From the NCBI RefSeq assembly GCF_015277815.1, contig NZ_CP063813.1, positions 2,914,001 to 2,978,000 of the forward strand: DNA of 64,000 bases. Reading direction: 5' to 3'. The translations under genes and the position numbers were made by a program. This DNA comes from Microbacterium atlanticum (GTDB lineage Bacteria > Actinomycetota > Actinomycetes > Actinomycetales > Microbacteriaceae). This document shows, piece after piece, positions 9,213-23,973 of this stretch. Below the pieces are notes generated by a model, which made no database searches, was not told the origin of the DNA, and worked only from the letters and a program-made list of their open reading frames with translations. Within the stretch, counting starts at the first letter, position 1; every line of letters starts with the position of its first letter.

Positions 9213-10013
9213 TCATGGCAGCTTGACGGGACCCGTCAGCTCGGCGAGTTCGGCCTCGAGCTCGGCCATCGCCTCCCCGCCGGCCATGAGGTCGGTGATC
9301 TGCTCACGGGTGCGCTCGCCCTTGCGGAAATCATCCGCCTTCTTGCCGTGGATGAGCACGGCGAAGCGGTCGCCGACCGCCATCGCGTGCATCACGTTGT
9401 GCGTCACGAAGACGACGGCGATGCCCTGCGCCCGCGCGTGCATGATCAGCCGGAGCACGTGAGTCGACTGCTTCACGCCGAGCGCAGACGTCGGCTCGTC
9501 GAGGATCAGCACCTTCGCGCCGAAGTACACGGCACGCGCGATCGCCAGCGACTGACGCTCGCCGCCCGACAGGCTGCCGGCGAGGCGGTTGCCATCGGTC
9601 ACGCGCGTGATGCCGAGCTTCTGCATCTCGGTGACAGTGATCTCGCCGGCCGTCTTCTGGTCGAAGTAGCGGAACGGCCATATCCCTTTGACGGGTTCGC
9701 GCCCGACGAAGAAGTTGCGGGCAACCGACATGAGCGGAAAGGTGCCACCGTACTGGTGCACGGTCGCGATGCCCACTTCCGAGGCATCCTTCGGGCTTTC
9801 AAAGGCCATCGGCGCGCCGTTGACTTCGACGGTGCCGGTGGACGGCTTGTGCACGCCCGAGAGCACTTTGATGAGGGTCGACTTGCCAGCGCCGTTGTCC
9901 CCGAGGAGGCACAGCACTTCGCCCGGCTCGACCTCCAGCGAGATTCCTGCCAGTGCGGTATTGGTGCCGAAGGTCTTCGTGACTTGGTTGAGCTTGAGAA
10001 TCGGAGTAGCCAT
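9213..10013 (-). CDS. Sugar ABC transporter ATP-binding protein (single-domain, ribose/fructose/inositol type)
   Basis: 266 residues. All ABC motifs are present: Walker A GDNGAGKST near residue 39, Q-loop HQYGGTFPLM near 86, signature LSGGERQ near 148, Walker B KVLILDEPTSALG near 168 and switch histidine in VVFVTHNV near 200. It is the short one-domain form (as in FrcA-type systems) rather than the duplicated RbsA/MglA form, so it would act as a homodimer with the permease at 10028-11116. The order binding protein - permease - ATPase, next to iol genes, points to inositol or a related polyol. Confidence 0.9.
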   Translation of the reverse strand: MATPILKLNQVTKTFGTNTALAGISLEVEPGEVLCLLGDNGAGKSTLIKVLSGVHKPSTGTVEVNGAPMAFESPKDASEVGIATVHQYGGTFPLMSVARNFFVGREPVKGIWPFRYFDQKTAGEITVTEMQKLGITRVTDGNRLAGSLSGGERQSLAIARAVYFGAKVLILDEPTSALGVKQSTHVLRLIMHARAQGIAVVFVTHNVMHAMAVGDRFAVLIHGKKADDFRKGERTREQITDLMAGGEAMAELEAELAELTGPVKLP

Positions 10014-10027
10014 TGCCGGAGTCCTTC

Positions 10028-11116: not shown

Positions 11117-11157
11117 GACTCTTTCCTGGTTCTGTGCTCGGGTCGCCTGCGGGGGCG

Positions 11158-11189
11158 CGGCGGGGCGCAGCGCGAGCCGCACCCCGCCG
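11158..11189 (-). terminator. Attenuator-like hairpin between binding-protein and permease genes
   Basis: CGGCGGGG (11158-11165) and CCCCGCCG (11182-11189) form an 8-bp GC stem with a 16-nt loop just after the binding-protein stop (11195). Such elements commonly hold binding-protein mRNA above permease mRNA levels; that role is inferred. Confidence 0.45.
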
Positions 11190-11194
11190 TCGCC

Positions 11195-12250
11195 TCAGCG
11201 AACGCCGTTCTTGGTTCCCTGGATGGCGAGGTCCACGTTGTCGGACGTGATCAGCGCGGGCCCGGTGAGGATGCGCTCCTCGGGCAGCTTGATGCCGTAA
11301 GCAGCCAGCTGGAAGGCGTTGGCGACCGCGTAATAGCCCTGCGCGAAGGGCTGCTGGTCGATCGTGAACAGTTGCGTGCCGTCCGCGATGCGATTGAGGA
11401 CCGTCTCGGCCACATCGAAGCTGGCCAGCCCCACCTTCTCGGTCAGGCTGCCCTGCTCGAGCGCCGCCGCGGCACTGTCGGCGTCAGCGGTGCCGATAGT
11501 GATGACGACATCGACCGACGGGTCCTGCAGCAGCGCGCCCTTGATGGCCTCCTTGATGGCCGTCGGGTCGCCGAACTGGGTCGACGGAAGGTTGAGGTCA
11601 GTCACCTTCGTGCCGGACGCACCCTCGTGGATCCCCTCGCAGCGGGCGTCGACGTTGGCGACGCCCGGGAGCGTGTTGACACAGAGGATGTGCGCGTAGC
11701 CGTCGTCCTCGAGCTTCTTGCCGCCGGCGACACCCGCCTCATAGTCGTCGGTGCCGATGTAGATCTCTCCGCCGACGTCGCCGACAGTCTCCTGTCCGGC
11801 GTTGTAGATGATGACGGGGATGCCCGCGTCCGAGATCGCCTGGATGTTCGCGTTCTGGGCATCGGGAACCCAGTTCGGCAGCACGACGGCGTCCGGGTTC
11901 ATAGCCTGCAGATTGCCGACGAGCTTCGCCGCGTCCGAGCTGAAGTTGTCGTAGTTCGGCATCGACACGAAGGTGACCTTGCCACCGGCCGCCTCCACGG
12001 ACTTCGCGGCGGACTCCGCGCCGTTCTTCACTGTCGACCAGAAGAGGTCCGACGAGGCGCCGCCCATGACGGCGATCGTCACGCCATCGGCGCTTCCGTT
12101 GCTGGAACCGCCGGTGGCCGAAGAGTCGGGGCTTCCCGACGTGCATCCGGCGAGCGTCATTCCGACCGCGACGATGCCCGCGATCAGCGTGGCCGCAGCT
12201 GCACGGCGACGCAGACGAGAAGGCCGGGTGATGAGCTGCGTGGAATTCAT
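11195..12250 (-). CDS. Sugar ABC transporter substrate-binding lipoprotein (periplasmic-binding-protein family 1/4)
   Basis: 351 residues from ATG 12250 (GGGAG 8 nt upstream; ATG 12268 is an alternative). The N-terminus has a basic RPSRLRRRAAAA stretch, a hydrophobic core, and the lipobox LAGC giving a lipid-anchored Cys near residue 36, then a Ser/Gly linker. The mature part is a RbsB-like domain: TIAVMGGASSDLFWSTVKNGAESAAK, NYDNFSSDAAKLVGNL, PDAVVLPNW, DAGIPVIIYNAGQ, YIGTDDYEAGVAGGKKL, VDVVITIGTADADSAAAALEQ, FTIDQQPFAQGYYAV. It delivers substrate to the adjacent permease. An inositol-type ligand is inferred from context. Expressed divergently from the Gfo/Idh gene at 12457. Confidence 0.9.
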   Translation of the reverse strand: MNSTQLITRPSRLRRRAAAATLIAGIVAVGMTLAGCTSGSPDSSATGGSSNGSADGVTIAVMGGASSDLFWSTVKNGAESAAKSVEAAGGKVTFVSMPNYDNFSSDAAKLVGNLQAMNPDAVVLPNWVPDAQNANIQAISDAGIPVIIYNAGQETVGDVGGEIYIGTDDYEAGVAGGKKLEDDGYAHILCVNTLPGVANVDARCEGIHEGASGTKVTDLNLPSTQFGDPTAIKEAIKGALLQDPSVDVVITIGTADADSAAAALEQGSLTEKVGLASFDVAETVLNRIADGTQLFTIDQQPFAQGYYAVANAFQLAAYGIKLPEERILTGPALITSDNVDLAIQGTKNGVR

Positions 12251-12307
12251 CCTCGCGACTCCCTTCATTGTTGAGCCGCACGTTGCGGCGATCGACTTTG
12301 ACCTGGG

Positions 12308-12385
12308 TTGATAGTGGACTATGTGCATACATACCGACAATGCGTTGAGTGCACCCGTTACCGAATCGTTACCATCAATCGTCGA
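12308..12385. promoter_or_regulatory. Divergent control region of the ABC importer and Gfo/Idh genes
   Basis: The 206-bp gap between divergent starts contains ACATACCGACAA (12329-12340), identical over 12 bp to the site at 13508. Nearby is a direct repeat of CGTTACC (within 12357-12375, 11-bp period) and CGTCGACG (about 12381). No clear -35/-10 pair could be chosen on either strand. Confidence 0.55.
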
Positions 12386-12456: not shown

Positions 12457-13503
12457 ATGCGGGCGAGAATCGGGCTGGTCGGGTTCGGCGTGGGAGGGAG
12501 GCTGTTCCATGCCCCGTACATCGAAGCCTCCGCGGAATGCGAGCTGGCGGGCATCGTGGCCCGCTCCCCCGAGCGCGTGAGGCTCGCCGCGACGCACTGC
12601 CCCGGAGTGCCGGTCTACGGCTCGCTGGGTGAGCTGATCGACGCCGGAGTCGACGCGGTCACCATCACCACGCCGCCGCAGACCCGTCGCGAGCTCGTAC
12701 TGGAGGCGGTCGAGCGCGGCGTCGCCGTCGTCGCGGACAAGCCGTTCGCCCTCTCCGCCGACGACGCGCTCACACTGATCTCCGCCGCACACGCCGCCGG
12801 CGTCCTGCTCAACGTCTTTCACAACCGCCGCTTCGACGCGGACATCGTCACCGCGCGCGGAGTGCTCGACTCGGGTGCACTCGGCGCGATCCAGCGGCTG
12901 GACCTGCGCTGCGACCAAGACGACCCCGACGCGCTCGATGACTCCCCCGACGGCGGACTTCTGCGCGATCTCGGCAGTCACGTCGTCGACCAGGCATTGA
13001 GCCTGCTCGGCCCCGCCCGCGCGGTCAGCGCCTCGCTCGACTGGGCGGACACTCCAGCCGGCCCGGTCGACACCGGGTACGTCCTGCACATCCATCACCG
13101 ATCCGGAGCGCACTCTCATCTGTCGTCCACCAAACGCAGCCGCCTCTCGTCGCGCGAGTTGCGACTGATCGGAAGGAACGGCTCGTACATCTCGGATTAC
13201 TCCGATGTGCAGTACGACGCAATCGTCCGCGGCGAACGCCCCGGCGCACAGCGTTCGTGGGGCGTCGAGGACGAATCGCGCTGGGGACGGATCCGCCTGC
13301 TCGACGGCACCGATCTGGCCGTGCCGTCCGCGCGCGGCGACTACACGACCTTCTACGATCGCTTCGCGCGAGCGTGGGCCACCGGCGATGCCGGTCCGGT
13401 TCCCGCCGAGCAGGGCCTCGCGGTACTGGAGGTCATCGACGCCGCGTTCCAGTCCTCCCGGGAGGGGGCAACCGTCGATGTCATCCCCAGTGAAACCAAT
13501 TGA
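12457..13503 (+). CDS. Gfo/Idh/MocA oxidoreductase, scyllo-inositol-dehydrogenase (IolW)-like
   Basis: 348 residues from ATG 12457 with GGAAGGA 6 nt upstream; the longer reading from 12349 has no RBS. N-terminal Rossmann domain begins RIGLVGFGVGGRLFHAPYI, a form typical of NADP-dependent IolW/YdgJ enzymes. Then VDAVTITTPPQTRRELVLEA, VVADKPFAL with the catalytic lysine near residue 95, FHNRRFDADI, and GGLLRDLGSHVVDQAL with the catalytic Asp/His pair. The C-terminal beta-sheet domain is complete. It likely interconverts an inositol isomer and its keto form. Its stop codon lies inside the promoter of the next gene. Confidence 0.85.
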   Translation: MRARIGLVGFGVGGRLFHAPYIEASAECELAGIVARSPERVRLAATHCPGVPVYGSLGELIDAGVDAVTITTPPQTRRELVLEAVERGVAVVADKPFALSADDALTLISAAHAAGVLLNVFHNRRFDADIVTARGVLDSGALGAIQRLDLRCDQDDPDALDDSPDGGLLRDLGSHVVDQALSLLGPARAVSASLDWADTPAGPVDTGYVLHIHHRSGAHSHLSSTKRSRLSSRELRLIGRNGSYISDYSDVQYDAIVRGERPGAQRSWGVEDESRWGRIRLLDGTDLAVPSARGDYTTFYDRFARAWATGDAGPVPAEQGLAVLEVIDAAFQSSREGATVDVIPSETN

Positions 13504-13528: not shown

Positions 13529-13603
13529 TGCCGCTGGCGCCGCTTGGCGTCATCACCGCACCGGCGCTGTGAGGCGACGGCAGATCCTGTTCCAGGAGGA
13601 CTG

Positions 13604-14815
13604 TTGACCACCAACGACATCGGAGTCGCCGTCATCGGCGCGGGCATGGCCGGCAAGGCACATGCCGCCGCCTATCGCTCGGCTCCCACTGTTTACGACA
13701 CCACGCTGCCTCCGGTTCGCCTGGTCTCCATCGCCGACGTCTACGAGCCCCTCGCGGAATCGACGGCACGGCGCTTCGGCTTCACGCGCCACGACACGTC
13801 GTGGCAGGCGATCGTCGACGCCGACGACATCAACGTCGTCAGCGTGGTGGTCGCCAACGCGCTGCACCGCGAGATCGTCGAGGCGCTCCTCGCGGCAGGT
13901 AAGCACGTGCTGTGTGAGAAGCCGCTGTCCGATACCCTCGACGACGCGCGCGCCATGGTCGCCGCCGCTGACGCGGCCGACACCGTGGCCCGCATCGGGC
14001 TCACCTATCGCCGCTCGCCCGGGTTGGCGTTCATCCACGAACTCACGCAGTCCGGCGCGCTGGGCAACATCCTCAACGTGAGCGGCTCGTACTGGACCGA
14101 GTACGCCTGCAACCCAGAGTCTCCCATCTCGTGGCGTTACAAGGGACCCAACGGCTCCGGAGCCCTCGCCGACGTCGGCAGCCACCTCACCTACCTCGCC
14201 GAGTTCGTCGGCGGCGCCCAGTTCACCTCCGTGCGCGGTGGCACGCTCAGCACCGTCATTCCGACCCGGCCGAAGCCTCTCGGCGCGGTCGTCGGCCACG
14301 AAGGAGGCGCTGTCTCGGACGAGCGCGAGCCCGTCGAGAACGACGACGTCGCCGCTTTCTCGGGCCTGCTCGCCAACGGCGCGACCGCGACCCTGCAGGT
14401 CTCCCGGGTGGCGGCAGGTCACCCCAATTCGCTCAGCATCGAGGTCTTCGGCGACAAGGGGGCGGCTTCCTTCGACTTCCGGCACCCGGGCGAGATCCAG
14501 CTGTACCTCGCGGGGGAGTCGCCGGCGACAGCCGGATACCGCACCGTCATCCTCGGACCGCAGCAGCCGTACTGGAAGGGCGGGCTCGCGATGGACGCCC
14601 AGGGCGTCGGTGTCGGCCAGAACGATGGTTTCGTCTTCCAGGCACGCGCCTTCCTCGAAGAGGTGGCGGGCATCCCCGAGGCCGACTCGCTCCCCCGCAA
14701 CGCCGACTTCGCGGACGGCCTGCGCAACATGCTGCTGCTCGACGCGGTCGCGCAGTCGGCCGCGGCCGGCGGCGCCACCGTCGAGGTGTCGCGCGAGACG
14801 GCGGGTGCCCGATGA
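13604..14815 (+). CDS. Gfo/Idh/MocA family oxidoreductase
   Basis: 403 residues from a TTG at 13604, chosen because AGGAGG (13594-13599) is the only strong RBS and no ATG or GTG serves. GVAVIGAGMAGKAHAAAYRS is the NAD-binding fingerprint; VLCEKPLSDTLDDAR has the catalytic lysine, GLTYRRSPGLAFI follows, then SWRYKGPNGSGALADVGSHLTYL with the Asp/His pair. The C-terminal domain ends SLPRNADFADGLRNMLLLDAV. This branch (about 400 residues) acts on inositols or sugars, so IolG-like activity is possible but not proven. ATGA overlap with the next gene. Confidence 0.85.
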   Translation: MTTNDIGVAVIGAGMAGKAHAAAYRSAPTVYDTTLPPVRLVSIADVYEPLAESTARRFGFTRHDTSWQAIVDADDINVVSVVVANALHREIVEALLAAGKHVLCEKPLSDTLDDARAMVAAADAADTVARIGLTYRRSPGLAFIHELTQSGALGNILNVSGSYWTEYACNPESPISWRYKGPNGSGALADVGSHLTYLAEFVGGAQFTSVRGGTLSTVIPTRPKPLGAVVGHEGGAVSDEREPVENDDVAAFSGLLANGATATLQVSRVAAGHPNSLSIEVFGDKGAASFDFRHPGEIQLYLAGESPATAGYRTVILGPQQPYWKGGLAMDAQGVGVGQNDGFVFQARAFLEEVAGIPEADSLPRNADFADGLRNMLLLDAVAQSAAAGGATVEVSRETAGAR

Positions 14816-15822
14816 AGCTCGGCCTGTACAACGCGGTCCTCCACGACCGCACGCTGCCCGAGGCGATCGAGGTCGTCGGCGGCCTGGGCCTGACCGGACT
14901 CGAAATCAACACCGGCGGCTTCCTGCCGGCGGTGCACGTGCCCACCTTCGATGACATCCTGGTCAGCGACACCGCTCGCGACGACTTCCTCGGGATCTTC
15001 GAGGGCACCGGCGTCGGCATCGCGGGGCTGAACTGCAACGGAAACCCGCTGCACCCCAACCCCGAGATCGGGCGCAAACACGCTGAGGACATCCGCCGCT
15101 CGATCCGTCTCGCCGAGCGGCTCGGCCAGCACCGGGTCGTGACGATGTCCGGATTGCCCGGCGGTGAGCCCACCGCGCAGTACCCGAACTGGATCGTCAA
15201 CGCCTGGAACTCCGCCGCGCTCGACGTGCTGGACTACCAGTGGGCGCTCGTGGCCGACTTCTGGCGGGAGACGGATCGTCTCGCACGCGATCACGACGTC
15301 AAGGTGGCGCTCGAGCTGCACCCGCAGAACGTGGTGTTCAACAGCGCCGACGTGCACAAGCTCATCGATCTCACCGGGGCGACGAACGTCGGGGTCGAGC
15401 TCGATGCCTCGCACCTGTTCTGGCAGCAGATGGATCCGGTGGCGGTCGCCCAGCACCTCGGCGAACTGGTGTTTCACGCCGCGGCCAAGGACGTGCGTGT
15501 CAACCCGCAGTGGGCCGCACTCAACGGCGTGCTGGACAACAGCTTCCGCCGCCTGCGGTCCGACGAGCCGCGCACCAATCTGGGTGGCGACGAGTGGGCG
15601 AACGAGTGGCCGAAGAACTCGGCGTGGGACTTCGTCGCCCTCGGCAAGGGGCACGACGTCGCGTACTGGACGGAGTTCCTCCGCGCCCTGCACGACATCG
15701 ACCCCGACATGATGGTCAACATCGAGCACGAGGACGTCGAACTCGGTCGCGTGGAAGGCGTCGCGGTCGCCGCGGAGGTCCTGAAGGCGGCGGATGCTGC
15801 GCTCCAGGGGTCTCTCGTATGA
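14812..15822 (+). CDS. Sugar-phosphate isomerase/epimerase (xylose-isomerase-like TIM barrel)
   Basis: 336 residues, ATG 14812 within the ATGA overlap of the preceding gene. TIM-barrel landmarks: KLGLYNAVLHDRTLPEAIEVVGGLGLTGLEINTGGF, GIAGLNCNGNPLHPN, HRVVTMSGLPGGEP, VKVALELHPQNVVFN with the first metal Glu near residue 164, GVELDASHLFWQQMDP with metal Asp/His, VFHAAAKDVRVN, and a final MMVNIEHEDVELG with the last Glu. Longer than IolE and without its sequence features, so not called as iolE. Co-transcribed with two dehydrogenases, consistent with oxidation - isomerisation - reduction of a polyol or sugar. Confidence 0.85.
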   Translation: MKLGLYNAVLHDRTLPEAIEVVGGLGLTGLEINTGGFLPAVHVPTFDDILVSDTARDDFLGIFEGTGVGIAGLNCNGNPLHPNPEIGRKHAEDIRRSIRLAERLGQHRVVTMSGLPGGEPTAQYPNWIVNAWNSAALDVLDYQWALVADFWRETDRLARDHDVKVALELHPQNVVFNSADVHKLIDLTGATNVGVELDASHLFWQQMDPVAVAQHLGELVFHAAAKDVRVNPQWAALNGVLDNSFRRLRSDEPRTNLGGDEWANEWPKNSAWDFVALGKGHDVAYWTEFLRALHDIDPDMMVNIEHEDVELGRVEGVAVAAEVLKAADAALQGSLV

Positions 15823-16595
15823 CAGCGTGGGCGAGCTATCCGTATCAGGACCGAGTTGTGCTCGTCACCGGCGGCGGCACCGGGATCGGCCGCGCGATCG
15901 TGCGGTCGTTCCTGGAGCAGGGTGCCTCGGTCGCCGCGGTCGGCCGCACGCGCGCGGCGCTGGACGAGGCGGTGGCCGACTTCCCGGCCGAGCGCGTCCA
16001 TGTGATCGTCGCCGACCTGGCCGAGTCCGCGGCACCCGCCGACGCGGTGGCCGAGACGGTCGCCCGGTTCGGCCGCCTCGACGTCGTCGTGGCGAGCGCA
16101 GGGACGAGCGAGGGCAGCGACATCCACGATCTCGACATCGCGGTGTGGGAGCGGCAGCGCGCCATCAACCTCGACTCGGTGATCGCGCTGGCCGCGGCGA
16201 GCGTTCCGCACCTGACGCAGACGGCGGGCAATCTGCTCGCCATCTCGTCGATCGCGGGTCTGCGCGGCGACTGGGGCATGTTCGCCTACAACGCCACGAA
16301 GGCCGCGGTGAATGTCATGATGCAGGCCCTCGCGCTGGACCTCGGCGCCGTCGGTGTGCGCGTGAACGCACTCGCGCCGGGGTTCACGGCCTCGCGGCTC
16401 ACGCAGGAGCGCCTGGACGACCCGGAGTTCAGGGAGCGCCTGCTCGATCGCGTGGCGATCGGGAGGGTTGCCGACCCGGAGGACATCGCGAAGGTGGCGC
16501 TGTTCCTGTGCAGCCCGGACGCCGGGTACATGACGGGCGCCATCGTGCCGGTCGACGGCGGTGTGAGCGCGTCCTCGGGGACGCCGCGCAGCTGA
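15819..16595 (+). CDS. Short-chain dehydrogenase/reductase
   Basis: 258 residues, ATG 15819 in an ATGA overlap with the isomerase. Classical SDR: VLVTGGGTGIGRAIV (cofactor TGxxxGIG), VVVASAGTSEG (NAG-like), catalytic Ser in LLAISSIAGLRGDWG near 146, and YNATKAAVN with Tyr-x3-Lys near 161-165. The C-terminus reads DPEDIAKVALFLCSPDAGYMTGAIVPVDGGV. After the first beta-strand it has GRTR, which favours NADP. Last gene of the plus-strand iol-linked operon and closed by a strong terminator. Substrate unknown, probably an inositol or sugar derivative. Confidence 0.9.
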   Translation: MTAWASYPYQDRVVLVTGGGTGIGRAIVRSFLEQGASVAAVGRTRAALDEAVADFPAERVHVIVADLAESAAPADAVAETVARFGRLDVVVASAGTSEGSDIHDLDIAVWERQRAINLDSVIALAAASVPHLTQTAGNLLAISSIAGLRGDWGMFAYNATKAAVNVMMQALALDLGAVGVRVNALAPGFTASRLTQERLDDPEFRERLLDRVAIGRVADPEDIAKVALFLCSPDAGYMTGAIVPVDGGVSASSGTPRS

Positions 16596-16661: not shown

Positions 16662-17078
16662 CTAACCGTACGGAAGCCGGTCGCGGTCGTACGTGATGGT
16701 CCGATAGCCGTGAGGAACCGGCGTACCGGCCTCGTCGATCCCCACGAAGACGATCTTGTCGATCGCGAGGATCGGCGCGCGCGTGACCATGTTGCGCACC
16801 TCGGCGCGCATCGTCAGTGAGGTACGCCCGAAGGAGACCGCGCGGATTCCGAGCTCGATCAGATCCCCCTGGCGGGCGGAGCTCACGAAGTCGATCTCCG
16901 ACATGTACTTCGTCACCGCGCGCGGGTTGCCGAGCTGCAGGATCGCGTAGATCGCCGCCTCCTCGTCGATCCAGCGCAGCAGGCTGCCGCCGAAGAGCGT
17001 GCCGTGCGCATTGAGGTCTTCCGGCCGCACCCAGCGGCGCGACCGGAAGGTCACCTCGTCGACAGATTCCGCGCTCAC
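16662..17078 (-). CDS. Acyl-CoA thioesterase (hotdog fold, YciA/BACH type)
   Basis: 138 residues from a GTG at 17078 that overlaps the transaldolase stop as GTGA. The hotdog core is clear: LNAHGTLFGGSLLRWIDEEAAIYA, holding the Asn/His loop and the Asp catalytic residue near residue 35, then VTKYMSEIDFVSSARQGDLIELG and RTSLTMRAEVRNM. Length and motifs fit the one-domain acyl-CoA thioesterase family. Its coupling to a transaldolase-like gene is unexpected; a CoA-recycling role in the pathway is possible but unproven. Confidence 0.85.
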   Translation of the reverse strand: MSAESVDEVTFRSRRWVRPEDLNAHGTLFGGSLLRWIDEEAAIYAILQLGNPRAVTKYMSEIDFVSSARQGDLIELGIRAVSFGRTSLTMRAEVRNMVTRAPILAIDKIVFVGIDEAGTPVPHGYRTITYDRDRLPYG

Positions 17079-18166
17079 GCCGGCGGGAGAAGGATGTCGC
17101 GCACGACGTGGTCGAGCTGTTCGTCGGCTTCGAGGAACTGACGCAGTGTGCGCACTGTGGCGCCGAACGTGTCGAACTCCGCCGGGGTCAGACCGTCCAC
17201 CTCGTAGGCACGACGGAACTCGGGCACCCGCTCGAGAAGGGTGTCGAGGATGTGCGCGGGAACCGGCACATCGATGCGCGACTCGACGGGCAGCAGGTTG
17301 TCGTTGATGCGCACCTGCCAGTCGAAAGGGGGCGAGACCACCAGGTTGCCGCCCTGCAGCTCCGACCAGTGCATGTGGTTGCGGAAGGCGGCCGACAGCA
17401 GGCGCGAGCGGAACCCCCGAGCGACGAACTCGTGGTACGCCTTCTTGAGCGCGGCGACACCCGCCCATTCCAGATAGCCCGGGTCGATGAGGACTCGCTG
17501 GCGCACGACGGATGCCTTGACCCAGTCGTCGAGCCGGCCCCCCATGAGCGTGACGACCGAGCCCATCTCGCCCGTGACGAGTCCGTCGGCGGCGCGGCGA
17601 TCGAGACCGCGCTCGATGGCTTCGGCCGCGGCGACTGCCTGAGCGACCGTGAACGAGACGGTGACGTTGATGCTGACGCCCCGGTAGGTGGCCTCTTCGA
17701 TGGCGACGAGCCCCACCGAGGTCGCGGGGATCTTCACGATGATGTTCGGCGCGAGGCTACTGAAGCGCACCGCCTGCTCGACGAGCGCCTCGGCGTCGCG
17801 GTGCAGGCGCGGGTCGGTCTGGATCGACAGTCGACCGTCCCTTCCACCCGAGGCCTCGAAGGCGGGCTCGAGCAGCCGCGCCGCAGCGATGGAGAGCTCC
17901 TCGACGACCTTCCAGCCCAGGAACGACTCGCCTGCCGTCGGGTACTCCTGCGCGAGTTCAGCGATCCGCGGATGCCATTCGTCGAGGTGCGCGCGGACGG
18001 CGGCGAGGGCGATCACCGGATTGCAGGTCGCGCCCACCGCGCCGAACGCGATCGACTGTTCGAGCTCGACGGGATCCGCCGAGTCGTTCCACAGCACGGT
18101 CGGGAAGCGATTGGCCGCGTCGGCGAGCGGGGCGGTGGGCGTGCTGGTGTCGAGCGTTCTGCTCAC
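17075..18166 (-). CDS. Transaldolase family protein
   Basis: 363 residues from GTG 18166 with GGAGGAATC just upstream. Transaldolase signatures: PTVLWNDSADPVELEQSIAFGAVGATCNPVIAL (the TSNP-like element), ISIQ/LSIQTDPRLHRDAEALVEQA, and the Schiff-base lysine in NIIVKIPAT near residue 155, followed by GVSINVTVSFTVAQAV. It is clearly diverged from the standard actinobacterial pentose-phosphate Tal, and an iol-type operator lies at its promoter, so I infer a dedicated aldol step in the inositol or linked sugar pathway. Transcribed from 18201-18230 and coupled to the thioesterase. Confidence 0.85.
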   Translation of the reverse strand: MSRTLDTSTPTAPLADAANRFPTVLWNDSADPVELEQSIAFGAVGATCNPVIALAAVRAHLDEWHPRIAELAQEYPTAGESFLGWKVVEELSIAAARLLEPAFEASGGRDGRLSIQTDPRLHRDAEALVEQAVRFSSLAPNIIVKIPATSVGLVAIEEATYRGVSINVTVSFTVAQAVAAAEAIERGLDRRAADGLVTGEMGSVVTLMGGRLDDWVKASVVRQRVLIDPGYLEWAGVAALKKAYHEFVARGFRSRLLSAAFRNHMHWSELQGGNLVVSPPFDWQVRINDNLLPVESRIDVPVPAHILDTLLERVPEFRRAYEVDGLTPAEFDTFGATVRTLRQFLEADEQLDHVVRDILLPPA

Positions 18167-18197
18167 GATTCCTCCACAACTTTGTCAGGACATTACA

Positions 18198-18230
18198 TCG
18201 TTAGTATCTCATGATTTTGTCGTGGTTCAA
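18198..18230 (-). promoter_or_regulatory. Promoter/operator of the transaldolase-like gene
   Basis: Minus strand TTGAAC (18225-18230) - 18 bp - TACTAA (18201-18206). The -10 is embedded in AGATACTAACGA (18198-18209 reversed), a copy of the regulon motif. The start codon is about 30 bp downstream. Confidence 0.55.
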
Positions 18231-18250
18231 AGGTTTCGCCCGCAAAGAAA

Positions 18251-18284
18251 GCGGCGACCGCGGGGCTCCCCCCGCGGTCGCCGC
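18251..18284 (-). terminator. Terminator after the P450 reductase gene
   Basis: GCGGCGACCGCGGGG (18251-18265) pairs perfectly with 18270-18284 (15-bp stem, 4-nt loop), 18 bp past the reductase stop. It isolates the transaldolase promoter from the P450 operon. Confidence 0.85.
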
Positions 18285-18302
18285 GTGTGCTCGGCTGGTC
18301 GC

Positions 18303-19301
18303 TCAGAGATCGAGCACGAGCAGTGGGCATGCCGCCCGCGAGACGCACACCATCATGCAGTCGTTGCGCCCCTGCTCCTCCTTGGTCAGGACCGAGTCCC
18401 GGTGGTCGACCTCGCCCTCCAGCACCGGCGTCTCGCACGTGCCGCAGGTTCCCTCGCCGCACGACGACAGGATGTGGATGCCGGCCTCGCCGAGAGTTTC
18501 GAGCACACTCTTGTCGGCGGGGACCGTGATCCGCTCGCCCGTGCTCGAGATCTCGACATCGAACGCCACGTCGGCGGCCCGCTCCACCACCTTCGGCGCG
18601 AACCGCTCGAGATGCAGGGCGCCCGTCGGCCAGGTGGCATCGCAGATCGTCTCCACCGCCGCCAGGAGCGGCTCCGGTCCGCAGGTGTACACCACGGTGT
18701 CGGCATCGGGGCCACCCAGCACCTCGGGCAGGTTGATGATGCCGTGGGTGTCTTGAGGCCACAGCGATACACGCTCGCCGAACGCCGCGAACTCCTCGCG
18801 CAATGCCATCGAGTCGAGCGTGCGGCCTCCGTACACGAGCTTCCATGGCTTGCCTCTGCGCTCGACCTCGCGCGCCATCGCCGCGATCGGCGTGATCCCG
18901 ATACCGCCGGCGATGAACAGATACGAGTCGGCGTCGACCAGCGCGAAGTGGTTGCGCGGCCCTCGGATCGTCAACCGGTCGCCGACATGCACGGAATCGT
19001 GCACGTACCGCGAACCGCCGCGACTCGCCGGGGCGTTGAGCACGCCGATCGTCAATGAGGAGCGGTCTGCGGGATCGCCGCACAGCGAGTACTGACGGAC
19101 GATGCCGTTGCCGAGCTCGACGTCGATATGAGCGCCGGGCTGCCATGCGGGCATCTCGCCTCCGTCCACCGCGGCGAAGGTGATGAAGACGACGTCGGCG
19201 GCAGCATCCGTCCGCGCCAGGACGACCGCGTCGATCACCGCCTCCTCCTCGATCGCCTCGGCGGGGGCGTGCTCGGTCAGCACTCCAGTGTGATTCGACA
19301 T
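18303..19301 (-). CDS. PDR/VanB-type ferredoxin oxidoreductase (flavin + C-terminal [2Fe-2S]), P450 electron donor
   Basis: 332 residues from ATG 19301. The order is flavin-binding barrel (RQYSLCGDP, the RxYSL flavin motif, near residue 68), NAD domain (FIAGGIGITPIAAMAREVE near 132 and VYTCGPEPLLAAV near 212), then a plant-type ferredoxin domain with Cys in SSCGEGTCGTCETPVLEG and a fourth Cys in DCMMVCVSRA. That is the phthalate dioxygenase reductase / VanB layout. It is 25 bp downstream of the P450, so it most likely delivers NAD(P)H electrons to it in a two-component system. Length is typical (about 320). Confidence 0.9.
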   Translation of the reverse strand: MSNHTGVLTEHAPAEAIEEEAVIDAVVLARTDAAADVVFITFAAVDGGEMPAWQPGAHIDVELGNGIVRQYSLCGDPADRSSLTIGVLNAPASRGGSRYVHDSVHVGDRLTIRGPRNHFALVDADSYLFIAGGIGITPIAAMAREVERRGKPWKLVYGGRTLDSMALREEFAAFGERVSLWPQDTHGIINLPEVLGGPDADTVVYTCGPEPLLAAVETICDATWPTGALHLERFAPKVVERAADVAFDVEISSTGERITVPADKSVLETLGEAGIHILSSCGEGTCGTCETPVLEGEVDHRDSVLTKEEQGRNDCMMVCVSRAACPLLVLDL

Positions 19302-19326
19302 GATGTGGTTCTCCTTCTCTGCGCGG

Positions 19327-20562
19327 TCAGGCGAAGCGCACCGGCACGCTGTCGAACACGTAGGCGTTCGGCGTGGTGATATAGCGATGCGGCTCACCGG
19401 CCAATTCGAAGATGGACTTGCGGGCGACGAGCTGTTCGAGGGCGACGGTGGTCTCGAGGCGGGCAAGCGGGTTGCCGAGGCATCCGTGCAGGCCCTCGCC
19501 GAATCCGAGGTGCGGCTTGGGCGTGCGGAGGATGTCGAACTTCTCGGCGTCCTCGAACACCGTCTCGTCACGGTTGGCCGAGCCAAGGATGAGGAAGACG
19601 CGCTTGCCCTCGGGGATCTCGACGCCGTCGAACTCGACGGGCCGCACGGTGGTGCGCGCGGTGACCTGGAAGATCGTGCGGTAGCGCAGGGATTCCTCCA
19701 CAGCGCGAGGGATGAGCTTCGGGTCGTCGTGAAGCGCCCGCTGTTGCTCGGGGTGGCGGCCGAGCTGCTCGAACAGCGTCGACATCGTGCCGGCGGTCGT
19801 CTCAACGCCACCGAGGTACATGGCGAAGGCCAGGCCCGTTGCTTCGGCGGCGAAGTCGATCTCGTCGCCGGCGATCGGCACGCCGTCGATCTCGGCCTGC
19901 ACGATCGCGGTCAGCACGTCCTCGCGGGGATTCGCTCGACGCTCGCGAAGCAGGTGCGCCAGGTACTCGCGCAGCTCCTGCGACGACTCCCTGGCCCAGG
20001 GCGTGAGCTCTTGCGATCCGATCTCGCGGTGCTTGATGCCGTGCGTCCACTGCACGAACTTCTCGCGTATCTCACCCTCGGGCATGCCCAGGAAGTTGTA
20101 GAACACCTCGAACGGGATCGGCCACGCGAAGTCCGCGGAGATGTCGATCTCGCGCCTGTCGCCGAAGGAGTCGATCAGGGTGTCGCACACCTGACGCACC
20201 TCGTCCGTCAAAGCCCGGATGCTGCGCGGCATGAACGACCGCTGCACAGCGGCGCGCAGCTGATCATGCCGCGGATTGTCGATGTTGGGCAGCATGCCGG
20301 GGAAGCTGCTCTGCTCCTGCTCGAAGTCGTCGATGTCGACGCCCTGGAAGTTGAGCAGGTCTTCATGGTTCTTGAGGGCTGCCCGCACATCGGCGAACCG
20401 GCTCAGCGCGTAGAAGTCCCACTTCTCGTTGTAGTAGACCGGGGCCTCGCGACGGAGTCGCTCGTACGAGGCGAAGGGGTCCGCCTGGAACTCCGCGGTG
20501 AACGGGTCGTAGATCGGGTCGTACTCGGCCTCGACGTACGGCTTCTCGATGCTCATCGCCAT
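19327..20562 (-). CDS. Cytochrome P450
   Basis: 411 residues from ATG 20562 (AAGGAAG 8 nt upstream). All P450 landmarks are seen: I-helix YLGGVETTAGT near residue 250, ExxR in EESLRYR near 288, and heme loop FGEGLHGCLGNPLA with the thiolate Cys near 360. Soluble class, no membrane anchor. It has no ferredoxin gene of its own but is followed by a PDR-type reductase. Under a LacI-type double operator. Not assignable to a CYP family by eye. Context (inositol island, SMP-30-like gene, sugar-type LacI) suggests an oxygenated or O-methylated sugar, cyclitol or plant aromatic as substrate; that is inference. Confidence 0.93.
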   Translation of the reverse strand: MAMSIEKPYVEAEYDPIYDPFTAEFQADPFASYERLRREAPVYYNEKWDFYALSRFADVRAALKNHEDLLNFQGVDIDDFEQEQSSFPGMLPNIDNPRHDQLRAAVQRSFMPRSIRALTDEVRQVCDTLIDSFGDRREIDISADFAWPIPFEVFYNFLGMPEGEIREKFVQWTHGIKHREIGSQELTPWARESSQELREYLAHLLRERRANPREDVLTAIVQAEIDGVPIAGDEIDFAAEATGLAFAMYLGGVETTAGTMSTLFEQLGRHPEQQRALHDDPKLIPRAVEESLRYRTIFQVTARTTVRPVEFDGVEIPEGKRVFLILGSANRDETVFEDAEKFDILRTPKPHLGFGEGLHGCLGNPLARLETTVALEQLVARKSIFELAGEPHRYITTPNAYVFDSVPVRFA

Positions 20563-20584
20563 CGACGTCACTTCCTTCTTCGGA

Positions 20585-20640
20585 ACAGTATTGGCGCGCG
20601 CCAACATCAGAACAGTAGCGCGCGCCAACATCCGCGTCAA
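20585..20640 (-). promoter_or_regulatory. P450 promoter with duplicated LacI-type operators
   Basis: Minus strand TTGACG (20635-20640) - 17 bp - TACTGT (20612-20617). Operator A, TTGGCGCGCGCTAC (20615-20628), lies in the spacer against -10. Operator B, TTGGCGCGCGCCAA (20591-20604), is a perfect 14-bp palindrome 24 bp downstream and is followed by a second TACTGT (20585-20590). The whole GATGTTGGCGCGCGC...TACTGTTC block is tandemly duplicated. Confidence 0.8.
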
Positions 20641-20668
20641 GCACGTCGCGATCTCCCCCGCGACAGCA

Positions 20669-20700
20669 GTGCGCCCGACCGCCGGAGCGGTCGGGCGCAC
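20669..20700 (-). terminator. Terminator after the SMP-30-like gene
   Basis: GTGCGCCCGACCG (20669-20681) pairs with 20688-20700 (13-bp stem, 6-nt loop), 20 bp after the stop at 20721 and upstream of the P450 promoter. Confidence 0.8.
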
Positions 20701-20720
20701 GGGGTCCGAGTCGGTCGATG

Positions 20721-21695
20721 CTATGGAGTCACACGCACGAGACGCCCGCCGATGAGCCACTCGGTGAGCACGAGATCCCCTTCGTGAGCGGCGATGCCGT
20801 GCGGGCTGTTGAAGGTGGCAGGCACGAGATCCGGTGCGAAAAGCGCCTCGCCGTCCTCGCCCAGTCGGTTCGGCCAACCGGCCCCCTCGTGCGAGCGGAC
20901 ACGCCGCGGTTCGAGGCGCCGCACGAAGCTGTCCTCGCGGTCGAACTGGGCGACCCCGCCGAACAGCTCGGTGACGAACAGGTCCTCGCCGAGCAGCGCG
21001 AAAGAGGACGGACTGTCGAGCTGGTCTTCGCCGAAGACCGAGACCGCGCGGCCGTCCTGGTCCAGGACGACGATGCGATGGTTCGACCGATCCGCGACGA
21101 GGGCGCGCAGTTCGTCTCCGCGTCGGCGCAGGACGATGCCGTGCGGACATGAGAACCTCGCGCCGGTCTCGGAGCCGTCGTACGTGCCGAGCAGCGTGCC
21201 ATCAGACGCGTAGCGGTGCACGAGGTCAGCGCCGTACCCGTCGGCCACCCACACCTCGTCAGTGCCGCCCTGTCCGCGGTCCACATCGATCGACGTCGGC
21301 CGCCAGCACGCCTCGCTGTAGACCGGCAGGTCCGGCTGGGCGAGTTCGACCACGATCCGGCCGTCGGCCACGGCGAGCAGCACCGCACGCCCCTGCTTCC
21401 ATTCCGCCTCGTAGTGCGCGTCCTCTCCGGGCAGCATCCGGTACCCCGGGTCGGCGACGGCGAGCACGCCGTCATCTGAGGTTCGGGCAATCCCGTGAAG
21501 CTCGGTGAGAGCCGTGGGCACCTCACGGGTGGCCCCCTCGGGGTCGATCACGAGAAGGGCACGACCTTGCGGGTGCGCACAGTAGATCGTTCCGTCGGGG
21601 GTGATGGCGATGCCGGAGTGCATCCAGCCGTCCGAACGCGGTAGACGGTCGCTGAGGTCCTGCCAGCGGGAAATGGGGGCGACGTCACGCGTCAT
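20721..21695 (-). CDS. SMP-30/NHL-repeat beta-propeller protein (gluconolactonase-like)
   Basis: 324 residues from ATG 21695 (GAGGAGAG RBS). Repeated blades of the pattern GIAITPDGTIYCAHPQGRALLVIDPEG, LHGIARTSDDGVLAVADPG, PTSIDVDRGQGGTDEVWVADGYGADLVHRYASDGT, CPHGIVLRRRGDELRALVADRSNHRIVVLDQDG and a final FNSPHGIAAHEGDLVLTEW indicate a six-bladed propeller. No signal peptide. This fold includes lactonases, so hydrolysis of a lactone produced downstream of the P450 or a dehydrogenase is possible, but binding without catalysis cannot be excluded. Follows the DUF2470 gene by 29 bp in one operon. Confidence 0.75.
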   Translation of the reverse strand: MTRDVAPISRWQDLSDRLPRSDGWMHSGIAITPDGTIYCAHPQGRALLVIDPEGATREVPTALTELHGIARTSDDGVLAVADPGYRMLPGEDAHYEAEWKQGRAVLLAVADGRIVVELAQPDLPVYSEACWRPTSIDVDRGQGGTDEVWVADGYGADLVHRYASDGTLLGTYDGSETGARFSCPHGIVLRRRGDELRALVADRSNHRIVVLDQDGRAVSVFGEDQLDSPSSFALLGEDLFVTELFGGVAQFDREDSFVRRLEPRRVRSHEGAGWPNRLGEDGEALFAPDLVPATFNSPHGIAAHEGDLVLTEWLIGGRLVRVTP

Positions 21696-21724
21696 ATCTC
21701 TCCTCGAATGAGTCTGCGGCCCGA

Positions 21725-22003
21725 TCAGGACCGACCGAACCGCGCCTCCTCCTGCATCTCCTGCAGGTGGCGTCGGATGTCTTCGCGAGCGCTGAGTGGC
21801 GCGGGCCACGGGATGTCGACGTCCTGGCGCGCGCCGCCGGCGTCGATGACGGCCAGCGTCAGGACAGCGCCGGACATGCCCACGATCCTGGCCGACCGAG
21901 CGGAAGCGCCGTGCGCCACGGCAATCTCGGCGAGGGCGTCCTGGTGGGTCTCATTCATGTAGTCGGCGATGAACGCCACGACGTCGTCGGGAGGTTCGAA
22001 CAC
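21725..22003 (-). CDS. DUF2470 domain protein
   Basis: 92 residues from GTG 22003, chosen for the GGAG 6 nt upstream; the longer open frame to 22114 would run through the operator and lacks a start. The sequence DDVVAFIADYMNETHQDALAEIAVAHG, an ARIVGM segment and a C-terminal REDIRRHLQEMQEEAR helix match DUF2470, normally the C-terminal domain of HugZ-like heme-utilisation flavoproteins. Here it is a stand-alone domain. Placed first in an operon with the SMP-30-like gene and under the same type of operator as the P450, so a link to the heme protein is tempting but unproven. Confidence 0.75.
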   Translation of the reverse strand: MFEPPDDVVAFIADYMNETHQDALAEIAVAHGASARSARIVGMSGAVLTLAVIDAGGARQDVDIPWPAPLSAREDIRRHLQEMQEEARFGRS

Positions 22004-22037
22004 GATCTGCTCCAGGTCTTCGGTCGCGGACCCGACG

Positions 22038-22054
22038 ATAGTAGCGCGCGCTAA
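22038..22054 (-). promoter_or_regulatory. Operator/-10 region of the DUF2470-SMP-30 operon
   Basis: TTAGCGCGCGCTAC (22041-22054) contains the perfect palindrome TAGCGCGCGCTA and abuts TACTAT (22038-22043, minus strand). This is the same operator-then-minus-10 arrangement as at the P450 promoter. No good -35 is visible 17 bp upstream. Confidence 0.7.
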
Positions 22055-22067
22055 GGGTTGGCGCCAC

Positions 22068-23090
22068 TCAAGAAGCGGGCACCAGGAACCGGCTCGAGGA
22101 GGTCCGCACCACAAGCCGGGGCGTCACGGTCTCCACGACGGCCGGACGGTCCGGGTCGTCGATCCGCTCGAGGAGCAGCGTCGCCGCCTGCGAAGCGATC
22201 GTCCTCGCGTGCTGGTCGACCGAGGTCAGCCCGACGCCGGGATAGCCCGCGGCGCGGGTGTTGTCATAGCCGACCACTGCGAGATCTTCCGGCACACGGA
22301 TCCGCTCGCGATGAGCGCATGCGAGCACGCCGAAAGCGGCGGCATCGTTGTAGCACACCACGGCCGTCGGAAGTCGGTCGGCGCGGCGCATCGCCAGCAG
22401 CGCCTTCGTACCGCCGGACTCGGTGGCATCCGCCTGCTCGAACCTCGCCGGATGTCCCGCCGCCTCCATTGCCGCGCGATAGCCGGCCGCGCGCGCTGCG
22501 CCCTGGCGCGTCTCGGGACCGGTCAGGAAGGCGATGTCGCGATGTCCCTGGCTCAGAAGGTGATCTGTCGCGGCGCGCGCCCCCGCGAAGTCGTCACCGT
22601 GCACCGCGTCCACGTGCGGAAGGCCGGTCGCCTCGCCCAGCGTCACGGCCGGGGTACCCGCGAGCACACGTCCGAGATCGTCACTGCCTGCGACGTGGGT
22701 GGCGATCAGAATGCCGTCCACCCGCAGGCCGACCAGCGATTCCAGGCCGGTGACGCCACGCTCGTCTCGCCGGGGCCCGGTCGCGAGCAGCAGCTGATAG
22801 CCTGCCGGCTCCACCACATCGGCGACGCCGTCCGTGAAGTCCGCATACACCTGGTTGTGAATGTCGAGCACAGCGAGGCCTATCGAGTAGGTGCGCCGCC
22901 CTGCCAGACTGGCGGCGAGGTTGTTGCGCCGGTATCCGAGCCGCTCGGCCGCATCCAGCACGAGAGCGCGCTTCTCCGGGGCGACATACCCGACATCGCG
23001 AATGACGAGCGAGACGAGCTGTCGCGACACACCCGCCTCCCGCGCGACGTCCGTCATGGTCACCGTTCGCCGCACGTTAGCGCCTTCCAT
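22068..23090 (-). CDS. LacI-family transcriptional regulator
   Basis: 340 residues. N-terminal helix-turn-helix VTMTDVAREAGVSRQLVSLVIRDVGYVAPEKRALVLDAAERLGYRRNNLAASLAGRRT with hinge, then a periplasmic-binding-type effector domain: SIGLAVLDIHNQVYADFTDGVADVVEPAGYQLLLATG, GLRVDGILIATHVAG, VHGDDFAGARAATDHLLSQGHRDIAFLTGP, VVCYNDAAAFGVLACAHRERIRVPEDLAVVGYDN, LTSVDQHARTIASQAATLLLERID. The recognition helix has Arg-Gln-Leu-Val-Ser instead of the usual SxxTVS. The two promoters with GCGCGCGC palindromes lie immediately downstream, so they are the likely targets; the effector is probably a sugar or cyclitol. Confidence 0.9.
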   Translation of the reverse strand: MEGANVRRTVTMTDVAREAGVSRQLVSLVIRDVGYVAPEKRALVLDAAERLGYRRNNLAASLAGRRTYSIGLAVLDIHNQVYADFTDGVADVVEPAGYQLLLATGPRRDERGVTGLESLVGLRVDGILIATHVAGSDDLGRVLAGTPAVTLGEATGLPHVDAVHGDDFAGARAATDHLLSQGHRDIAFLTGPETRQGAARAAGYRAAMEAAGHPARFEQADATESGGTKALLAMRRADRLPTAVVCYNDAAAFGVLACAHRERIRVPEDLAVVGYDNTRAAGYPGVGLTSVDQHARTIASQAATLLLERIDDPDRPAVVETVTPRLVVRTSSSRFLVPAS

Positions 23091-23211: not shown

Positions 23212-23973
23212 ATGGCTCAAGAGGAGCATCTGCTCCCCACTGATTTCTTCCTCAAGGTGGACCGCTCCAGCCCGGTGCCGCTCTACTACCAGATTGCGAC
23301 CGTCTTGGAGGAGGCGATACACGACGGACGACTACCCGCGGGCGCAAGGCTCGAGAACGAGATCTCCGTCGGCCAGCGTTTCGGGTTCTCGCGGCCGACC
23401 GTGCGACGTGCGATACAGGAACTCGTCGACAAGGGGCTCTTCGTGCGTCGACGGGGCATCGGCACTCAGGTCGTGCATGGCCAGATCAGCCGCAAGGTCG
23501 AGTTGACCAGCCTGTATGAGGACCTCAGCCAAAGCAACCAAAAGCCGACGACTCGCGTCATCCGATACGAGGTCGCGCAAGCGGACGAAGCCACCGCCGA
23601 TGCGCTCGGCGTTCCCGTCGGCGACAAGGTTCTGCATGTCACTCGCCTTCGTTCGGCCGACGGCGTTCCCATCGCCGTCCTGGACAACACTCTGCCGCGC
23701 GACTTCACCGATTTCACTGCCGAACAGCTCGAGCAATTCGGGCTCTACCAGCTGATGCGTAACCGCGGCGTCACGATGCGGGTCGCGAAGCAGCGCATCA
23801 GCGCTCGTTCCGCTACTTCTCTCGAAAGCGAACTGCTGGGTATACCTCACGGTGGCGCAGTGCTGACGATGTCGCGGACGGCCTTCGATAACTCGGGACG
23901 GGCAGTGGAGTTCGGGCAGCATTGCTACTCACCCGAGAGCTACTCGTTCGAGATGACGCTCGTCGACAAGTAG
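23212..23973 (+). CDS. GntR-family regulator, HutC/UTRA subfamily (candidate inositol regulator)
   Basis: 253 residues, ATG 23212 with a weak GGGGCGA RBS. N-terminal winged helix: SPVPLYYQIATVLEEAIHDGRLPAGARLENEISVGQRFGFSRPTVRRAIQELVDKGLFVRRRGIGTQVV. A UTRA effector domain follows from about residue 90 (TSLYEDLSQSNQKPTTRV to the C-terminal YSFEMTLVDK). Corynebacterium IolR is also a GntR protein of this kind, and this gene lies in the inositol region with a copy of the shared motif at its own promoter. I infer it as the iol regulator. Codon use is a little less GC-biased than neighbours. Confidence 0.85.
   Translation: MAQEEHLLPTDFFLKVDRSSPVPLYYQIATVLEEAIHDGRLPAGARLENEISVGQRFGFSRPTVRRAIQELVDKGLFVRRRGIGTQVVHGQISRKVELTSLYEDLSQSNQKPTTRVIRYEVAQADEATADALGVPVGDKVLHVTRLRSADGVPIAVLDNTLPRDFTDFTAEQLEQFGLYQLMRNRGVTMRVAKQRISARSATSLESELLGIPHGGAVLTMSRTAFDNSGRAVEFGQHCYSPESYSFEMTLVDK

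Follow-up and report, generated by a model that had tools for sequence, protein, structure and literature searches.

A cytochrome P450 and its reductase within an inositol catabolism island of Microbacterium atlanticum: a candidate O-demethylation pathway for methylated inositols

We analyzed a stretch of 64,000 nucleotides from the genome of Microbacterium atlanticum (contig NZ_CP063813.1, positions 2,914,001 to 2,978,000), hereafter the window, to which all module coordinates refer, and in particular a gene module at 17075-23090 that encodes a cytochrome P450 and its electron-transfer partner next to genes of inositol (iol) catabolism. The genomic neighborhoods of this P450 and of its relatives reveal a strong link, such that the P450 and the reductase very probably belong with inositol catabolism. 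More specifically, the P450 probably removes methyl groups from methyl-inositols, with release of formaldehyde, and feeds the iol pathway, a reading that we favor with moderate confidence. The initial annotation of this DNA had already suggested that the P450 feeds the iol genes by demethylating O-methyl inositols. The inositol part of this proposal gains support from a reductase gene downstream of the P450 in 37 of 44 related loci, iol genes nearby in 21 of the 44 and in most main clades, and a gene for the formaldehyde dehydrogenase FdhA at the island, whereas O-demethylation as the reaction and a cyclitol as the substrate are what we infer from this context.

The P450, its reductase and the adjacent inositol genes

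The open reading frames of the module are all on the minus strand, and Pfam and NCBIfam searches support the named genes. In the order of that strand, the products are a LacI-family regulator, a DUF2470 protein, an NHL-repeat protein, the P450, a phthalate dioxygenase reductase (PDR)-type protein, a divergent transaldolase-family protein and a 4HBT thioesterase. To the left lie plus-strand genes for two Gfo/Idh/MocA dehydrogenases (Gfo1 and Gfo2), a TIM-barrel protein and a short-chain dehydrogenase (SDR), and then, again on the minus strand, a sugar ABC transporter and the iol run, which comprises IolC, an aldolase-like protein, IolA, IolB, IolD, a TIM isomerase-like protein and an MFS porter. 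The module is flanked by the iol genes on one side and by their probable GntR regulator on the other. The P450, reductase, DUF2470 and LacI genes were all recovered where the initial annotation had placed them, and the inositol genes that it reported beside them are genuine; its labels for two further genes, a transaldolase and an SMP-30 protein, require the revisions described below.

The P450 (19327..20562, minus strand; 411 amino acids) matches PF00067 with 95.6 bits and has the defining features of the superfamily intact, namely, the ExxR motif (E290xxR293), the I-helix threonine (T256) and the heme-ligand cysteine (Cys361), all of which are retained in each of the 43 aligned P450 rows (the window included, the truncated L035 and L046 left out). 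The reading frames are intact, and we accordingly rejected the possibility that the P450 is a pseudogene. Five further residues, W172, H174, K177, R179 and Q299, are invariant in the same 43 rows. In an AlphaFold2 model of the P450 (mean pLDDT 85.7, with much of 73-95 under 50), these residues lie within helix 164-175, past its end or past the end of helix 281-294, in regions that we take to line P450 pockets, the helix and substrate-region names being likewise assumed from general knowledge of the superfamily; statements on pocket residues draw on the alignment and the predicted secondary structure. For a close homolog with a known, unrelated substrate, which the initial annotation regarded as contrary to its proposal, we searched the PDB, where the closest P450 structure is a distant match (207 bits); no protein named as a sugar demethylase is among the best 60 of the 421 matches.

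The partner protein (18303..19301, minus strand) is a one-protein reductase of the PDR type in which the flavin/NAD module (NAD_binding_1, 129-216) precedes a C-terminal plant-type [2Fe-2S] domain (Fer2, 251-323), and the RQYS, GGIG and CxxxxCxxC motifs are intact. Its best PDB matches, 6kbh (265 bits) and 6laa (229 bits), fall in the C-terminal part of P450 chains, followed by 7ylr and the phthalate dioxygenase reductase 2pia (175.8 bits). The fused chains 6kbh and 6laa, which we take to be of the CYP116B type, are the nearest solved reductase parts and show the same P450-then-PDR order as the fused relatives described below, but neither is among the best 60 of the 421 PDB matches of the P450, and in the window the P450 and the reductase are encoded by separate genes.

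Four enzymes of the iol run, all on the minus strand, exceed the curated cut-offs: IolD, trihydroxycyclohexane-1,2-dione acylhydrolase (2736..4631; TIGR04377, 812.5 bits, cut-off 715), IolB, 5-deoxy-glucuronate isomerase (4649..5560; TIGR04378, 238.3 bits, cut-off 205), an IolA-type CoA-acylating (methyl)malonate-semialdehyde dehydrogenase (5637..7190; TIGR01722, 658.8 bits, cut-off 448.5) and IolC, 5-dehydro-2-deoxygluconokinase (8129..9145; TIGR04382, 379.1 bits, cut-off 300). These enzymes are common to the window and the bacterial myo-inositol pathway, from which the M. atlanticum genome differs in the added P450 module and in that no IolG or IolE over cut-off is found in the whole genome (best scores, 104.4 bits against a cut-off of 355 for IolG and 39.6 bits against 290 for IolE, the latter for the AP_endonuc_2-type TIM barrel of the island). 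Judging from sequence similarity, the best local candidates for the two steps are Gfo1 (12457..13503, plus strand), a divergent IolG candidate (TIGR04380, 75.6 bits, cut-off 355; best model NF008607, 154.8 of 330 bits), Gfo2 (13595..14815, plus strand), which resembles levoglucosan and inositol dehydrogenases (NF052479, 258.7 bits, cut-off 650), and the TIM barrel (14812..15822, plus strand), a candidate inosose dehydratase or hydratase. The family profile of the latter matches 2zds (E 6e-19) and, weakly, the 2-hydroxy-3-keto-glucal hydratase 8ro4 (E 3.3e-4). Proteins at least 45% identical to Gfo2 and to the TIM barrel are encoded in 8 and 19, respectively, of the 44 P450 loci.

Recurrence of the linkage and of a shared palindrome

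These 44 loci (L002-L044 and the fragment L046) were retained from a scan of one genome per species; the window's own locus (L001) and four distant or partial P450 matches (L045, L047, L048 and L049) were left out before the count. The P450 relatives share 44-84% identity with the window P450 (35% for the fragment L046). A reductase is encoded directly downstream in 37 of the 44 loci, in one frame fused with the P450 in 26 cases and by a separate gene in 11. Among the 7 loci where it was not found downstream, L035 has it upstream, some are at contig ends, and L017, L018 and L026 seem to lack it. In the tree of the 43 P450 rows, the fused L002 adjoins the split window and L005 proteins, which implies that fusion or fission happened more than once. 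In L005, there is also a second PDR-type reductase gene (14177-15187, plus strand) with its own LacI; a second P450 was not recognised in this locus.

A match to iolA, iolB, iolC, iolD or iolX within 10 kb of the P450 was detected in 23 of the 44 loci, or in 21 when L023 and L027, with short iolC pieces only, are left out (L011 and L046, in which iolA is cut by the locus end, were kept); at least two such genes are present in 13 loci. The iol-linked P450s are spread over most of the main clades of the tree, including the window clade (window and L002), the L006-L040 clade (L040), Pseudonocardia, Intrasporangiaceae, Geodermatophilaceae and Actinomycetospora. The pair L029/L030 has no iol gene within 10 kb, and yet the L029 P450 is 16.3 kb from iolC. 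A relative of the LacI regulator (at least 30% identity) is encoded in 38 of the 44 loci.

As a control, P450s, iolC and iolD were placed in 13 genomes, with the P450s taken among the matches listed (178 by per-genome counts) and the family members on the control contigs recognised by coordinates. On the contigs with iolC or iolD, there are 19 P450 places among the matches listed; 8 of the 9 family P450s are 5.7-15.5 kb from iolC or iolD (L006 is 301 kb off), and the ten other P450s are 29-588 kb away. Three more family members, placed by locus coordinates, are 2.0 kb (L019), 2.6 kb (L022) and 16.3 kb (L029) from iolC, and the P450s of L003 and L013 are on contigs other than those with iolC or iolD, L013 having iolA and an aldolase-like gene adjacent. 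In total, 11 of 14 family P450s are within 2.0-16.3 kb of an iolC or iolD over cut-off, which is not an unbiased rate because the 13 genomes were chosen partly for their iol genes; the unbiased figure is 21 of 44. The combination of the P450 with reductase, LacI and iol genes recurs among the relatives beyond chance, and we rejected the notion of the P450 as a pure passenger gene on the grounds of the recurrent linkage and the distance control. A search of a plasmid collection yielded three records, at 34% identity.

Some of the loci contain further genes that might be of interest. A cluster (c11) assigned to the PhyH family of Fe/2-oxoglutarate oxygenases by a Pfam test of one member is present in 19 of the 44 loci (L008-L046; e.g., L012:2046-3293, minus strand) and represents a second oxygenase in P450-bearing islands. 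An aldo-keto reductase and creatininase-family pair is located beside the P450 in L003 (6774-8589), L005 (15217-17021) and L024; an assignment of the creatininase-family gene as IolN in L003 and L005 is unsupported (46.0 and 40.1 bits versus 245).

The LacI-family regulator of the module (22068..23090, minus strand; PF00356 and PF13377) is 57-63% identical to those of L002-L005. Three putative LacI-type operators were identified in the module: an exact match to the palindrome TTRGCGCGYGCYAA (20591..20604) and a second, tandem site with one mismatch (20615..20628), both upstream of the P450, and a site with one mismatch (22041..22054) upstream of the DUF2470-NHL pair. In the window and the 18 kb to its left, which together with L002-L008, L037 and L044 were covered by the scan, three sites with at most one mismatch occur in 82 kb, compared with 0.1 expected from ten first-order Markov simulations. 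The palindrome is also found upstream of the P450 in L002, L003, L004 and L005, with tandem sites of similar spacing (23-26 bp), some with two mismatches, in the last three of these loci, and before NHL/DUF2470 genes (L004, L005), an MFS gene (L002) and, with two mismatches, the aldo-keto reductase gene of L003; L008 has a single site. Given that L006, L007, L037 and L044 have none, the predicted operator is apparently a feature of the window's clade. A separate LacI-like protein without the DNA-binding part in frame, 60% identical to the module LacI, is encoded next to the FdhA gene in the 18 kb directly left of the window (L070:15620-16525, minus strand).

On the other side of the module, a GntR/UTRA protein (23212..23973, plus strand; PF00392 and PF07702) is, by neighborhood, probably the iol regulator. 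Its relatives (at least 40% identity) are encoded in 7 of the 44 loci, next to iolC or iolX or one gene removed from it in L013 (an iolC piece), L014, L019, L022, L042 and L044, and adjoining the P450-reductase in L040.

The proposed pathway and its alternatives

Inositol catabolism needs no oxygenase, so that a P450 placed ahead of the iol genes most simply makes inositol from a compound that is not an inositol. We propose that the P450 and its one-protein reductase constitute a monooxygenase that would remove the O-methyl group from plant cyclitols of the pinitol, ononitol, sequoyitol, bornesitol or quebrachitol type, with electrons passing from NADH via flavin and [2Fe-2S] to the heme. The P450 would hydroxylate the methyl carbon, and the resulting hemiacetal would then fall apart to inositol and formaldehyde. 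Oxidation and dehydration of the freed inositol would fall to the island's Gfo/Idh dehydrogenases and TIM-barrel protein, after which IolD, IolB, IolC, the aldolase and IolA would take over, while FdhA, encoded just left of the window, would clear the formaldehyde. LacI may repress both the P450-reductase and the DUF2470-NHL genes via the shared operators until a ligand comes, and the iol genes would probably be controlled by the GntR protein.

The O-demethylation reading accounts for a formaldehyde dehydrogenase gene placed after the iol run. This protein, a glutathione-independent FdhA (TIGR02819, 749.7 bits, cut-off 636.95; PDB matches 4jlw and 1kol), is encoded at L070:16538-17878, approximately 1.46 to 0.12 kb left of window base 1, on the strand of the iol run and downstream of the MFS porter, and is the genome's sole copy over cut-off. 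In Gulosibacter sp. 10 (G312), an FdhA gene lies approximately 1.4 kb from a pair of genes encoding Gfo2-like (70%) and TIM-like (36%) proteins.

Precedents for this chemistry come from several systems. O-demethylation is in keeping with P450 chemistry known for a methoxy sugar (PMC10033563) and for aromatic compounds (PMC6021390). In marine Flavobacteriia, a P450 converts 6-O-methyl-D-galactose to galactose and formaldehyde (Reisky et al. 2018, as cited in PMC10033563), likewise by oxidative demethylation of a methoxy sugar in a sugar-catabolic gene cluster; in contrast to the single PDR-type reductase of the window, often fused in the relatives, that system employs a separate ferredoxin and ferredoxin reductase, and its substrate is a hexose rather than, as suggested by context here, a cyclitol. 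The GcoA/GcoB system, in which aromatic O-demethylation proceeds through a hemiacetal that decays to formaldehyde, has a P450 and a flavin/[2Fe-2S] reductase as two proteins, as in the window (PMC6021390). However, the 2Fe-2S domain comes first in GcoB and last in the window reductase, which places the latter outside the GcoAB type, and GcoA accommodates an aromatic substrate in a hydrophobic pocket, unlike the protein proposed here. Methylated cyclitols are described as major plant carbohydrates (PMC5889025, PMC6566849). Among the publications searched by title and the start of the abstract, a set that most subscription journals lie outside, we found no P450 or other bacterial enzyme that demethylates pinitol, ononitol or similar compounds.

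Several observations weigh against the proposed O-demethylation of methyl-inositols. Within the sequence covered for L002-L005, the nearest four loci, a diagnostic iol gene was recognised in L002 alone (IolD, 833.9 bits); L003, L004 and L005 have none within 10 kb and, on the stricter count, the same applies to 23 of the 44 loci, several of which are on short contigs. The invariant P450 motif G74, D76 and D78 was itself used to fetch the loci, which biases its conservation, so that it does not count as independent evidence. The best 60 of the 421 PDB matches of the P450 include CYP199A4 (174 bits), an established O-demethylase of aromatic compounds, so that demethylation activity by itself would not point to a cyclitol substrate. 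The palindrome pattern derives in part from the sites of the window, which were then counted; no palindrome was found upstream of the iol genes or FdhA, nor, at up to two mismatches, in L006, L007, L037 and L044. FdhA over cut-off is present in 18 of 30 P450 genomes (own included) versus 59 of 299 family genomes, a comparison of different taxa that gives only a hint, and FdhA was not found beside the P450 elsewhere, the other P450 loci yielding a single match at 29%. The FdhA contigs checked differ in length from the P450 contigs in seven genomes (G312, G314, G317 twice, G319, G321, G323 and G324), and other FdhA places differ from the P450 in contig number or position or are approximately 240-290 kb apart (G302, G307). 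Finally, no hexulose-phosphate synthase (RuMP) or mycothiol-dependent formaldehyde dehydrogenase over cut-off was found in the M. atlanticum genome.

Other reactions and substrates share part of this evidence. The P450 might hydroxylate a C-H bond of a deoxy-inositol of the quercitol or viburnitol type, yielding inositol without involvement of a methyl group or formaldehyde; the product would also enter the iol pathway and the conserved polar residues fit equally, but the formaldehyde dehydrogenase gene that follows the iol run is left unexplained and, as a matter of general knowledge, an O-methyl group is an easier target than the C-H bond of an unactivated ring carbon. We consider this reaction unlikely, as we do the demethylation of another O-methylated sugar, a hexose or sugar acid, that would be processed by Gfo2, the TIM barrel and the SDR on a mixed sugar island where the iol genes are mere neighbors. 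The proximity of Gfo2 to the levoglucosan dehydrogenase model, the weak match of the TIM-barrel family to the keto-glucal hydratase and the lack of iolABCD within 10 kb in L003-L005 all speak for such a sugar; nevertheless, iolA/B/C/D/X genes occur near the relatives in most clades, closer than to other P450s among the matches listed. It is quite improbable that the actual substrate is an O-methylated aminocyclitol of the rhizopine type. Rhizopine demethylation is reportedly the proposed task of mocDEF in rhizobia, the oxygenase of which is said to be of a different kind from P450. In the Sinorhizobium system, mocDEF is part of rhizopine catabolism under a rhizopine-inducible promoter, and is likewise tied to the use of inositol-derived compounds, one rhizopine being O-methylated (PMC10107442). 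Conversely, the comparison with the rhizopine system, confined to the regulator, gave a weak match of the island's GntR protein to the MocR model (35.3 of 650 bits).

The two remaining alternatives are less probable still. An aromatic or xenobiotic methyl ether, demethylated in the style of GcoA or CYP199 by a P450 whose position in the island is incidental, is suggested by the appearance of CYP199A4 among the PDB matches and by the fact that GcoA and the CYP199 member PbdA are O-demethylases with a one-protein reductase (PMC6021390, PMC11530827). The recurrent linkage to iol and sugar-transport genes, the reductase domain order unlike that of GcoB and the charged character of the invariant residues make this very improbable. 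The last possibility, to which we assign a minimal likelihood, is oxygen-free demethylation, whereby a Gfo/Idh dehydrogenase would make a ketone and the IolE-like TIM barrel would eliminate methanol, with the P450 required only for isomers that carry the methoxy group in a position other than beta to the ketone; the presence of the TIM barrel in 19 P450 loci and its weak dehydratase/hydratase family matches are compatible with this scheme, the argument for which is purely mechanistic, and no TIM barrel of at least 45% identity was found in the other 25 loci.

Accessory genes and origin of the island

The protein that the initial annotation labeled SMP-30 (20721..21695, minus strand) is an NHL-repeat beta-propeller: it matches PF01436 (E 0.001), and the SMP-30/gluconolactonase domain (SGL, PF08450) was not called; a few of its homologs carry both labels. 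The P450 loci L004, L005 and L007 encode relatives, as does L002, in which the contig end truncates the gene. Five histidines, His26, His67, His160, His185 and His299, are invariant in 43 sequences chosen from 566 homologs, and His67, His185 and His299 were considered against what we take to be the three-histidine zinc site of peptidylglycine amidating lyase (PAL); the family profile matches the PAL lyase 3fvz weakly (E 4.6e-5), more weakly than it matches many other NHL proteins. The adjacent small stand-alone DUF2470 protein (21725..~22003, minus strand, start codon uncertain; PF10615, 49.2 bits) has relatives in L002 and L005. One NHL homolog of 430 amino acids (P0139) combines NHL and DUF2470 domains in a single protein. 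The NHL protein might be a lyase or a lactonase; as a guess from sequence, the NHL and DUF2470 proteins could together act as a hemiacetal lyase, with hydroxylation and cleavage split as in peptide amidation by PHM and PAL and formaldehyde passed on in a controlled manner instead of leaking. It is doubtful, albeit conceivable, that a P450 family, split from or fused to its reductase, is devoted in Actinobacteria, and perhaps in some Chloroflexota, to opening plant methyl-inositols for catabolism and that, in the window's clade, the NHL and DUF2470 proteins are such a lyase.

The transaldolase gene of the initial annotation (17075..18166, minus strand), in line with the P450 genes, does match the family PF00923 (120.5 bits), but its scores against curated transaldolase models (117.3 bits of a subfamily cut-off of 367, and 81.8 of 233.75) indicate a divergent protein of the transaldolase/fructose-6-phosphate-aldolase (TAL_FSA) family. 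Relatives with 62-64% identity are present in 2 of 17 P450-bearing genomes (L019, L022), in both cases on the contig with iolC and iolD and, by coordinates, the P450. The gene overlaps that of the 4HBT thioesterase (16662..17078, minus strand; PF03061, 55.7 bits), the link of which to the module is uncertain; any contribution of either protein to the module is hypothetical.

Among the remaining neighbors, the SDR (15819..16595, plus strand) scores 259.3 bits against the best NCBIfam SDR model (cut-off 270). The CUT2-type sugar ABC transporter (ATPase, permease and binding protein; 9213..12340, minus strand) has a binding protein with 4ru1, a CUT2 monosaccharide-binding protein, as the best PDB match (108.2 bits), and its ATPase is at least 45% identical to counterparts in 25 of the 44 P450 loci. 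The aldolase-like protein beside IolC (7225..8142, minus strand), with weak DhnA-type aldolase matches below cut-off, has counterparts of at least 45% identity in 7 loci; the TIM-barrel isomerase-like protein of the iol run (1831..2697, minus strand; NF041099, 24.3 bits of 300), presumably similar to IolH or IolO, and the MFS sugar porter (341..1768, minus strand; TIGR00879, 327.4 bits, cut-off 237.8) have counterparts of at least 40% identity in 15 and 14 loci, respectively.

The island region is mostly lower in G+C than the right-hand part of the window, and the right end of the lower-G+C region has a tyrosine recombinase gene (27970-29217, minus strand) near tRNA-Met (29566-29640). At E 1e-80, the P450 has a match in 1 of 299 family genomes, that of the window itself, and in none of the other 298. 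Together, these features point to an acquired island; no att repeats of at least 15 bp were found in the window or in the 18 kb to its left. The same region encodes a QacA/B-like MFS efflux protein (24058-25737, minus strand; 552 bits, below the cut-off of 900) and, divergently, a protein that by eye resembles TetR regulators (25740-26309, plus strand).

If the proposed role of the P450 is correct, the P450-reductase genes would provide a genetic marker for bacteria that consume methylated cyclitols, and their relatives would amount to a naturally occurring set of P450s, some split and some fused, that act on a very polar substrate. The pathway outlined here would be directly testable.

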